A stretch of DNA of 64,000 nucleotides, taken from Tildeniella torsiva UHER 1998/13D (lineage in GTDB: Bacteria; Cyanobacteriota; Cyanobacteriia; Phormidesmidales; Phormidesmidaceae). The DNA is taken from contig JAHHIH010000009.1 of the NCBI GenBank assembly GCA_019358835.1, forward strand, positions 124,001-188,000, in the 5' to 3' direction. Below, one piece after another: positions 13,610-16,071 of this stretch (within the stretch, counting starts at the first letter, position 1; every line of letters begins with the position of its first letter). A program made the translations under genes and the position numbers. The notes beneath the pieces were generated by a model. That model saw only the letters and a program-made list of their open reading frames with translations, ran no database searches and had not been told where the DNA came from.

Positions 13610-14233
13610 ATGATCGCCATGCTGCGCTGGCTCACTGCAACGCTTCCCCCCGTGCCGTTCTTCCCCAACGCCATCCCTCGACTGAGTCAGGGCGTTGGGC
13701 TGGTATGCGCGGCTCTGCTGCTGTGGCTGGGGCTAGGCGGCCAGCCTGCGGCCTGGGCGGGCCTCACCGACGACAACTACGACGGCAATATCTTTGCCCT
13801 CTATGCAGGCAATGGGTCGCTGGTGCCCCCCAACGTTAGCCTGGCGCAGTCGCTGAAGTACGGCAAACCCGCGATCGTGGTGATGTTTGTAGACGACAGC
13901 AGCGACTGTAAGAAATTTGCGTCGGTAGTTTCCCAGCTCCAGGCCCCCTACGGGCGGGTGGCCAATTTTATTCCCATTATGGCTGACTCGATTCCGGTCA
14001 AAGATGCCTACGAGCCCAACGAGCCGGGCTACTACTTTAAGGATGCCGTGCCCCAAACCCTGGTATTCAATGCCCAGGGAGAGCTGGTGTTTAACGAAAT
14101 TGGCATGGTGGCCTACGAGGCGATCGACGATGTCATGCGAGAGGTATTTGACCTACTGCCCCGCACCGAGTCGGAAGAGCTGCGCCGCCGCCCCATCAAC
14201 GAGGTGAACTCGGAGCTGGTGCCAGAGCAGTAG
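13610..14233 (+). CDS. Thylakoid-associated thioredoxin-fold protein (photosystem I accumulation factor type)
   Basis: 207 residues. Residues about 27-51 form a hydrophobic signal or anchor (LVCAALLLWLGLGGQPAAWA). The following GLTDDNYDGNIFALYAGNGS, FVDDSSDCKKFASVVSQLQ and PGYYFKDAVPQTLVFNAQGE are hallmarks of a cyanobacterial family annotated as a thylakoid photosystem I accumulation factor. The fold is thioredoxin-like, but the active-site position reads SSDC with only one cysteine, so disulfide exchange by a CxxC pair is not possible. The last 38 bases overlap the 3' end of the convergent Rieske gene. Confidence 0.75.
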   Translation: MIAMLRWLTATLPPVPFFPNAIPRLSQGVGLVCAALLLWLGLGGQPAAWAGLTDDNYDGNIFALYAGNGSLVPPNVSLAQSLKYGKPAIVVMFVDDSSDCKKFASVVSQLQAPYGRVANFIPIMADSIPVKDAYEPNEPGYYFKDAVPQTLVFNAQGELVFNEIGMVAYEAIDDVMREVFDLLPRTESEELRRRPINEVNSELVPEQ

Positions 14234-15230
14234 CGCTATCTTTGGAAAAATTAGGTTCAACCACCGCTGGAAAGCTGGCAAAATTACGCTTTACCCAGTC
14301 CATGCCCACCTCATTGTTGAGCTTGATTTTCTGCGGACTGTTGGGGTAAATCTTGCCTAAAATATCGGCATCTTGCTCGACTACCACTTTGCCAAAGTTG
14401 AGGTAGCTGCGTCTCAGCAGATTGAAGGCGGGATGCTTGGCCAGACCAAACAGCAAAATGTAGGTGCGGGTGCGGTTCTCAGCCTCGGGCACAAACAGGT
14501 GGCACTGCGCTATTTTGCCCAGGGATGATTCTCCATGAAAAATGATCAGAGCTGGAAAGTGATTTTCAAGGTGGGCCTTGATGGTGCTGGGCAGCAAAAA
14601 CAAATCTGGACGGCGCAGTTTTTTTGCTAAAGCGTAGGGCGCAGTAGGCATGTCGTAGTAGGCATGGGATTCGTGCCCTCGATCGACGAACTGTTGGAAC
14701 TGCACCTCGGCAATGCGAAACAGATCGCGGTGGGTGCCGTTTTGATGGTTGTAGTCGTGCATATTGAGCAGCATGGTGAGCAGGCCGGTTTCCACCGTGC
14801 AATCAGCGGTATGGCCGATGAAGGTGTACTGGGCTGCGATCGCATTCAGCACCCCTGGAATTGGCACCTTGGGTTCGTAGCCCCCGTAAGACCAAACAAA
14901 ATCGCCCTGAACAATCAGCTCTAGCGGCTCCAATTGAGGCAGCGTTTGCTGATGGGAACCCGGCAGCACCGTACAACCCCGAGCGTCGAACCCCAGGGCA
15001 TGGAACGGGCAAACGACTCGACTGCTGCCGTCACCCAACCCTTCGCACCAGCCCTCTGACAGCATAGCCCCCAGGTGCGGGCAGGCGTTGGGCAGGGCAT
15101 GAACCTCACCTATGCCATCTTTCCACATTACATAGTCATTACCGTAGAGGGAGATTTTGCGAGGCTGGTTAGTGGTCAGCATAGACTTGTGCGCCACAAG
15201 CCAGGGCGCACCGGGAAGCATGGACTGCAT
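14196..15230 (-). CDS. Rieske non-heme iron oxygenase, alpha-subunit type
   Basis: 344 residues. The Rieske [2Fe-2S] ligands are visible as C50-P-H52 and C74-P-F-H77. The mononuclear iron facial triad is visible as D159, H162 and H167 in the pattern D-x2-H-x4-H (HDYNHQNGTH). This is the architecture of ring-hydroxylating dioxygenases and of cyanobacterial/plastid PAO-like oxygenases, although the protein is shorter than PAO and lacks its C-terminal CxxC. The substrate is unknown. I chose the ATG at 15230 because GGAGG sits five bases upstream; a TTG at 15278 is possible but poorer. It is divergent from a TetR-type gene across 52 bases, suggesting local control. Its 3' end overlaps the convergent thylakoid gene. 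Confidence 0.85.
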   Translation of the reverse strand: MQSMLPGAPWLVAHKSMLTTNQPRKISLYGNDYVMWKDGIGEVHALPNACPHLGAMLSEGWCEGLGDGSSRVVCPFHALGFDARGCTVLPGSHQQTLPQLEPLELIVQGDFVWSYGGYEPKVPIPGVLNAIAAQYTFIGHTADCTVETGLLTMLLNMHDYNHQNGTHRDLFRIAEVQFQQFVDRGHESHAYYDMPTAPYALAKKLRRPDLFLLPSTIKAHLENHFPALIIFHGESSLGKIAQCHLFVPEAENRTRTYILLFGLAKHPAFNLLRRSYLNFGKVVVEQDADILGKIYPNSPQKIKLNNEVGMDWVKRNFASFPAVVEPNFSKDSATALAPAPSSPR

Positions 15231-15282
15231 AGAGGCCTCCGGGGGATATAAAATTGTGAGAAATTCGTCGTGTTTCAAAAAT

Positions 15283-16071
15283 ATGACAGATGACTCACAT
15301 TCGTCAAGCCACCTGCGTCGTCAGCCTAAGCAGCGCCGAGGTCAACGGCGGGTCGAAAAAATTCTAGAGGCCGCTGCTCTGGTGTTTGATGAGGTGGGTT
15401 ATGAAGCGGCGACTACCCACCAAATTGCGGAACGGGCAGGCACGGCGATCGGGTCGCTGTACCAGTTCTTTCCTGACAAAGCGGCAATCTTTAACGCGAT
15501 GGAGCTGCGCCACCTGGAACGAGTGCAGGCGATGTGGGGCCAGGCCAATGCCCGAGAACTGTGGCGACTGCCGCTGAAAGAGATGCTGGCGCAGCTGACG
15601 ACTGGCGTGGCTGCACTGTTTGAGCAGCCGGTGTCGCGAGTCATGTTTGTACAGTTCTATACGGCCCGCGATCGCTTCCAAACCATTGACGACAGCCTGA
15701 CCCAGGGGGCGATCGCATTTGTCTCTGCCATCCTGCACCAGCGCAACCCAGACCTGTCAACGGAGCGGCGCGATCTCTTGGCGGAGGTCTGTGTGCACAG
15801 CTGCAATGCTCTAATTTTGGCGGCTCTGCGACAGCCAGATGAAGCAAAGCGCGATCGCCTGATGCAGCAAATTCCAGTGCTGTTGGCCGCGTACTTAACT
15901 GCCGATGTGGGCGATCAAATTTGCGGCCATGTAATGAATGTAATGATTTGCCCCCACTGTAAATCCCAGGAACTCGCCAGAAACGGGCGGCGGCGGGGCA
16001 AGCAGTGCTATCTGTGCAAAACCTGCGGCAAGCAGTTTGTCAATCCACTGGCAGAGCTTGCTGAGGCTTAG
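15283..16071 (+). CDS. TetR/AcrR-family regulator with C-terminal IS1/InsA-type zinc ribbon
   Basis: 262 residues from the ATG at 15283. Residues about 13-70 are the TetR helix-turn-helix (RRVEKILEAAALVFDEVGY, TTHQIAERAGTAIGSLYQFF). The ligand-binding and dimerisation helices run to about 215. The last 42 residues are a separate module, MICPHCKSQELARNG then RRGKQCYLCKTCGKQF, with CxxC pairs at 223/226 and 245/248. This matches the DNA-binding zinc ribbon at the N-terminus of IS1-family transposases (InsA), not anything usual in TetR proteins. No stop separates the two parts. Divergence from the Rieske gene suggests control of that gene, possibly by a Rieske substrate. The 3' end overlaps the inositol-phosphatase gene by 32 bases. 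Confidence 0.85.
   Translation: MTDDSHSSSHLRRQPKQRRGQRRVEKILEAAALVFDEVGYEAATTHQIAERAGTAIGSLYQFFPDKAAIFNAMELRHLERVQAMWGQANARELWRLPLKEMLAQLTTGVAALFEQPVSRVMFVQFYTARDRFQTIDDSLTQGAIAFVSAILHQRNPDLSTERRDLLAEVCVHSCNALILAALRQPDEAKRDRLMQQIPVLLAAYLTADVGDQICGHVMNVMICPHCKSQELARNGRRRGKQCYLCKTCGKQFVNPLAELAEA

Follow-up and report, generated by a model that had tools for sequence, protein, structure and literature searches.

Why does a transcription regulator of a cyanobacterium end in the DNA-binding zinc ribbon of a transposase? The question is raised by a gene of Tildeniella torsiva UHER 1998/13D, which lies in a stretch of 64,000 nucleotides of contig JAHHIH010000009.1 (hereafter the window, whose positions we use). 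A preliminary description of this DNA had read the gene as a TetR regulator fused in frame to a ribbon of the IS1/InsA type, and had seen in the ribbon either a domesticated second DNA-binding head giving new operator specificity or the scar of an insertion that captured the stop codon. The gene has the following parts, with the residues of its product, P0001, numbered from the one after the initial Met.

15283-16071, plus strand: tetR-ribbon gene, ATG at 15283, stop codon at 16069-16071, 262 amino acids including Met
15361-15501, plus strand: TetR_N helix-turn-helix, residues 26-72 (PF00440, 53.7 bits, cut-off 24)
15571-15897, plus strand: TetR_C_15 domain, residues 96-204 (PF17918, 70.3 bits, cut-off 26.8)
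15931-15945, plus strand: junction element GTAATGAATGTAATG (V-M-N-V-M), whose synonymous sites hardly vary among relatives
15949-16044, plus strand: IS1/InsA-type Cys4 zinc ribbon, residues 222-253 (NF050000, 44.0 bits, cut-off 28)

The reading frame is uninterrupted from the ATG to the stop codon and encodes the three domains in this order, which confirms the in-frame fusion. The N-terminal part belongs to the TetR/AcrR family by its helix-turn-helix, its C-terminal domain and its fold. The tail qualifies as an IS1/IS1595 N-terminal zinc-binding domain by a score above the curated cut-off of NF050000 and by four cysteines, C222, C225, C244 and C247, which form the two CxxC pairs noticed earlier; NF048018 also matches it (residues 222-251, 43.8 bits, cut-off 27). 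The narrower Pfam model Zn_ribbon_InsA (PF03811) gives 18.9 bits, or 22.8 with the tail alone, below its cut-off of 26.1. The protein is neither a full-length IS1 transposase (NF033558 gives 30.2 bits of the 100 required and covers profile positions 1-33 of 199) nor an InsA repressor, which joins ribbon and helix-turn-helix, since it stops 8 residues past the ribbon match. Nothing around the gene contradicts the earlier remark that other insertion sequence (IS) remnants are lacking: by eye, no transposase is apparent among the 30 open reading frames of at least 80 amino acids between 10 and 22 kb, and the 10 further ribbon matches in this genome (E<=1) are all on other contigs.

The fusion is found in many families of Cyanobacteria. 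Among the 143 genomes made up of this one and its relatives, 63 match the protein at E<=1e-10, and in 27 the alignment runs from residue 9 or earlier to at least residue 252, through the ribbon. Among 386 genomes sampled from the phylum, the level of E<=1e-25 is reached in 16, and in 13 of those the alignment includes the ribbon. A separate collection of contigs gave 165 relatives out of 207 candidate stretches. The 80 best yielded 79 loci, which to judge by their titles are all cyanobacterial; the match extends to at least residue 251 in 72 loci, the nearest named records being Phormidium tenue FACHB-1052, Leptolyngbya sp. FACHB-60 and Nodosilinea. The search found no match on phages, and 3 of the 139 matching plasmid records carry the TetR to residue 252 (identity 46-67%). 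For the relative BAZ36578.1, on a plasmid of Calothrix NIES-4101, the annotation says no more than "TetR family transcriptional regulator protein", and its neighbour is a "putative rieske 2Fe-2S domain protein". All these samples were picked by similarity to the query, so their counts are not prevalences. Because the same in-frame join recurs in many separate genomes, both a sequencing frameshift joining two genes and a local scar are rejected; neither condition that would have refuted the preliminary description (a tail confined to this strain beside IS debris, or such a frameshift) applies, and its idea of an insertion that captured the stop codon is not supported.

Pairwise dN/dS was computed over 11 orthologues, of which ten belong to the Nodosilinea group and one is a neighbour from the same family (Nei-Gojobori type, pooled pairs, figures without a significance test). 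It is about 0.02 in the helix-turn-helix, 0.19 in the TetR C-terminal domain, 0.29 in the linker, about 0.10 in the ribbon, 0.35 in the residues after it and 0.66 in the N-terminal codons. Judging from these ratios, the ribbon is under purifying selection. Its four cysteines are invariant in 33 of 33 aligned sequences, which had been picked as ribbon-bearing. In an AlphaFold2 model of P0001 (mean pLDDT 85.7), the ten-residue blocks of 221-250 score 83-91 and the linker residues 213-218 fall below 50; the ribbon is predicted to be folded and the linker flexible. The TetR part resembles 3mvp most closely (Z 18.1, rmsd 4.3, 196 residues aligned), and the best matches of a PDB sequence search are 2oer and 3bni. 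In the structural search with the whole model, it is residues 16-211 that are covered in at least a fifth of the rows, so the ribbon is barely tested by fold, and a PDB search with the ribbon alone returned mostly eukaryotic zinc fingers and is not meaningful.

Tails differ among relatives. The comparison covers 104 distinct TetR-domain sequences, after removal of L117 and L119 ahead of tree building, and its two source collections share many genomes. Of these sequences, 81 terminate in the ribbon and are spread over many cyanobacterial families, 3 have the ribbon followed by an InsA-like helix-turn-helix, 15 have a winged-helix-like segment and 5, two of them outgroups, have no tail. The winged-helix-like relatives are listed here.

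L039, L041, L111, L113, L121-L132 and L135: a segment (SRRTLQRDL) replaces the ribbon; several of these loci have only one operator-like box (see below)

No Pfam model matches this segment over its cut-off in the four proteins tested, and its label rests on weak HxlR and DeoR matches and on its appearance. The tail types require 9 changes on the TetR tree, where the possible minimum is 3, and sequences with winged-helix-like tails fall on both sides of the deepest split within the family. Tails thus appear to have been exchanged, lost or gained more than once, on a tree whose deep forks have moderate support (99/82 and 91/67). In the tailless relatives L107 and L109, no ribbon was found in the downstream DNA examined. 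The apparently tailless L108, from Phormidium tenue FACHB-886, is an insertion: an IS of about 1.4 kb with 13-bp inverted ends (L108:3087-4499, also in L256) separates the TetR from a stranded downstream ribbon that is still intact. Microcoleus sp. FACHB-61 has a truncated TetR part with an intact ribbon (L117:2693-3172).

The ribbon resembles that of InsA. The IS frames of relatives, such as the insA frame L167, consist of ribbon and helix-turn-helix, and an InsA-like helix-turn-helix still follows the ribbon after the TetR domain in L102 (Brasilonema), L104 (Scytonema) and L115; the Pfam scores of this helix-turn-helix are below the cut-off in the first two and above it in L115. A tree of the ribbons, poorly resolved with its 31 columns, separates 11 IS ribbons, 5 ribbons of GntR regulators and that of L115 from the rest (100/95). 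L115 is very divergent and has no Rieske neighbour within about 2.4 kb on each side; together with the grouping of its ribbon with those of IS, this means that it may be a separate capture. As L166, an IS ribbon, branches within the TetR group and L104 borders on the IS side, the tree does no more than suggest a single capture by TetR. The GntR cases were found in 5 of 192 genomes (G012, G017, G028, G051 and G061).

L173:751-1623, L170, L183, L184 and L185: GntR/FCD regulators with the same kind of InsA-type ribbon at the C-terminus

The ribbon pattern is absent from the GntR sequences aligned past a stop codon in G102, G013, G518 and G043, as we checked in the sequences themselves. The GntR case suggests that the capture of such a ribbon by a regulator happened more than once.

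What the fusion might regulate is indicated by its surroundings, in which the relevant features are these.

14196-15230, minus strand: Rieske non-heme iron oxygenase, 344 amino acids, divergent partner (PF00355, 54.1 bits, cut-off 20.3)
15255-15275, plus strand: operator-like box 1, TGTGAGAAATTCGTCGTGTTT, match to the EM motif
15278-15307, minus strand: predicted sigma-70-like promoter of the Rieske gene, TTGACG, 18 nt, TATTTT (or 16 nt, CATATT)
15282-15302, plus strand: operator-like box 2, TATGACAGATGACTCACATTC, overlapping the tetR start codon and the predicted Rieske promoter

A gap of 52 bp separates the two genes. The partner is a Rieske oxygenase by its profile match and by the Rieske CxH/CxxH and D-x2-H-x4-H motifs, kept in 28 of 28 aligned sequences. 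A divergent Rieske gene adjoins 80 of the 81 distinct ribbon-bearing TetR (the exception, L088, has 248 nt of upstream sequence), 2 of the 3 with ribbon and helix-turn-helix, 9 of the 15 with a winged-helix-like tail and all 3 tailless ones within the family. The two genes also occur together across genomes. Within the genus (26 genomes), the 9 with the TetR all have the Rieske gene at E<=1e-70 and the 17 without it all lack it at this level. In the whole set of 143, the Rieske gene passes this level in 36 genomes: 25 of the 27 that have the full-length ribbon TetR and 11 that do not, five of these 11 carrying the form with the winged-helix-like tail. G074 and G133 have the ribbon TetR and a Rieske match short of that level, and a more divergent Rieske gene adjoins the regulator there (L035 and L036).

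The boxes were defined by an EM motif, aTaTGAcAaATcatTCgcgTTTgT, trained on the same loci (L035 was left out of the box count), so the following counts are in-sample: two boxes are present in all 79 ribbon loci, in both loci with ribbon and helix-turn-helix and in all 3 tailless loci, and the 9 loci with winged-helix-like tails have two boxes in 2 cases, one in 6 and none in 1. Five of the six one-box loci belong to one clade, which also holds the locus without a box, so the difference could reflect descent. After mononucleotide shuffling (five rounds of 93 regions), no region reached the threshold. The motif is near-palindromic (TRTGA-N8-TCRYR) and scores on the reverse strand too in 90 of 93 regions; the commonest spacing is 27 bp, in 54 of the 86 loci with two boxes. 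In loci where tetR apparently starts further downstream (e.g. L037 and L113), the box is still present. A strict pattern has 14 matches in six genomes, 12 of them at the tetR/Rieske locus (one being box 2 on the other strand), which points to the TetR-ribbon protein as a local regulator. The two others lie beside another TetR gene (G004) and inside a reading frame (G000). At the former (L216, G004:C3:64879-64899), the match falls between a tail-free TetR gene and a divergent glycosyltransferase-like gene.

The promoter prediction gave 2 promoters, against a mean of 0.1 in shuffled sequences. The sequence GTCAA, which belongs to the first hexamer of this promoter, comes after the last box in each of the 79 ribbon loci and, among the 8 loci with winged-helix-like tails that have a box, in 3. 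Synonymous change is low where box 2 overlaps the coding sequence (pS 0.22 in the N-terminal codons against 0.50 in the whole gene). Since the same paired boxes occur in all three tailless loci (one of them L108, with its IS-cut TetR), and also in two of the nine with winged-helix-like tails, the ribbon probably does not set operator specificity. The earlier interpretation therefore holds in part: the element looks domesticated, given its presence in many families, the conserved gene order, the purifying selection and the relatives that keep an InsA-like helix-turn-helix, and the new operator specificity has so far found no support.

From the computed fusion, conservation, synteny, boxes and resemblance to InsA, we infer how repression, ligand release and ribbon contacts could be combined at this locus. 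TetR dimers would sit on the two near-palindromic boxes and cover the close-set start regions of tetR and the Rieske gene, so that the protein would repress its own gene and the divergent oxygenase; a ligand, perhaps a substrate of the oxygenase, would free the dimers from the boxes. The ribbon would derive from in-frame reading of an insA gene of the IS1 type and would have been retained as an auxiliary module which, tethered by the linker, would most likely add DNA contacts, non-specific or in the flanks, and help dimers to cooperate on the paired boxes. We give a little better than even chances to this account of a local, probably autoregulating repressor with the ribbon as an auxiliary DNA-contact module, of which the ribbon part is the weaker half. 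According to PMC12428005, the zinc finger and the helix-turn-helix of InsA are both described as required for binding specific to the inverted repeats (IR). As most members of the family lack this helix-turn-helix, their ribbon may not bind DNA alone. A ribbon could also serve protein contact or metal/redox sensing.

The auxiliary-module account leaves one observation unexplained, a DNA-level constraint at the fusion junction. In 83 distinct junctions, the codons ahead of the first Cys are GTA (80), ATG (80), AAA (63), GTA (81) and ATG (83), and the pattern in related loci is GTA-ATG-AAA/AAT-GTA-ATG. GTA encodes Val at the first site in 35 of 36 non-redundant genes (below 82% identity) and at the second in all 36, whereas codon use gene by gene would predict the commonest codon in about 13 (z about 9). 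At synonymous sites only codons 8 and 2, in the operator overlap, are more constrained; codons 138 (6.1, the best), 118 (5.6) and 167 (5.3) also stand out among those outside both regions, so the background is not flat. The idea that the junction is a general genomic motif is not supported: in 291 genomes, 51 of the 57 matches to its pattern lie at TetR genes by coordinates, one is ahead of an IS-severed ribbon and five are elsewhere (a backward-pattern control is not independent, as the reversed pattern matches the AAA form too). A programmed +1 frameshift, conceivable since GTA puts TAA or TGA in the +1 frame, is not supported either: upstream of the junction that frame is open over a median of 11 codons, often only 2, against 12 at control positions.

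The junction codons are possibly a retained insA start, and the gene could then yield, besides the fusion, a second product, a free ribbon protein of 42 residues that starts at the internal ATG and acts separately, like a mini-InsA. This is a possible but doubtful reading. The ATG two codons ahead of the first Cys is universal in the junctions compared, nearly always after GTA, some insA frames (L003 and L005) have V-M at the same position, and the RNA structure predicted around it, computed for every second of 82 loci (41), is weak (about -3 to -4 kcal/mol per 41 nt, where the profile averages -6.3). However, weak structure follows from A+T richness even if it also fits an internal start, no Shine-Dalgarno-like sequence is seen by eye, a start codon by itself gives no need for GTA over GTT, and the exact GTAATG was not found before the ribbon in the IS copies compared. 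A broader version, in which the cyanobacterial TetR/Rieske locus carries an exchangeable C-terminal module (InsA ribbon, ribbon with helix-turn-helix, or winged-helix-like segment) behind a nucleotide-fixed junction that keeps the insA start, and yields from one gene a two-headed repressor as well as a free ribbon, we regard as unlikely. The invariant cysteines and the iron-sulphur partner would suit a ribbon that senses zinc or redox state, metal loss or Cys oxidation altering the repressor and tying oxygenase expression to metal or redox conditions; as the ribbon is of a DNA-binding type and other relatives have a winged-helix-like segment in its place rather than another sensor, this is distinctly unlikely. 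Finally, readthrough into an insA fragment might have left a tolerated tail without function, as the existence of L107 and L109 without a tail would allow, but the low dN/dS of the ribbon, its invariant cysteines and its presence in many families make this highly improbable.

The locus documents well, by genome comparison, that a DNA-binding piece of a transposase can be retained in the long term in a bacterial transcription factor, and its relatives display intermediate and alternative tail states. It offers a testable system for the effect of an added ribbon on a TetR repressor, and its join exposes a constraint on synonymous sites that awaits explanation. In titles and the openings of abstracts, with subscription literature mostly outside the search, we found no description of a TetR-ribbon fusion or of the Rieske/TetR locus, and its novelty is provisional.

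With IS1-type InsA and the IS1 transposase (NF050000, NF033558) the fusion has the Cys4 ribbon in common, and three fusion relatives keep the helix-turn-helix too; in contrast to them, it shows no match to the catalytic part, lies outside any IS and carries the ribbon at the C-terminus of a host regulator. With TetR/AcrR regulators of the TetR_C_15 type (PF00440 and PF17918) it shares both domains, and differs by the Cys4 ribbon after a flexible linker. PfsR of Synechocystis is likewise a cyanobacterial TetR, which binds its own promoter, but PMC4092027 gives it 203 residues, a length that leaves little room for such a tail. The oxygenase partner shares its Rieske domain and the D-x2-H-x4-H motif with its structural neighbours GxtA/SxtT, dicamba monooxygenase and KshA, from which it is distant (14-19% identity in the Foldseek rows); as the model compared is of low confidence (mean pLDDT 62.8), these matches identify the partner as a Rieske oxygenase and nothing narrower.
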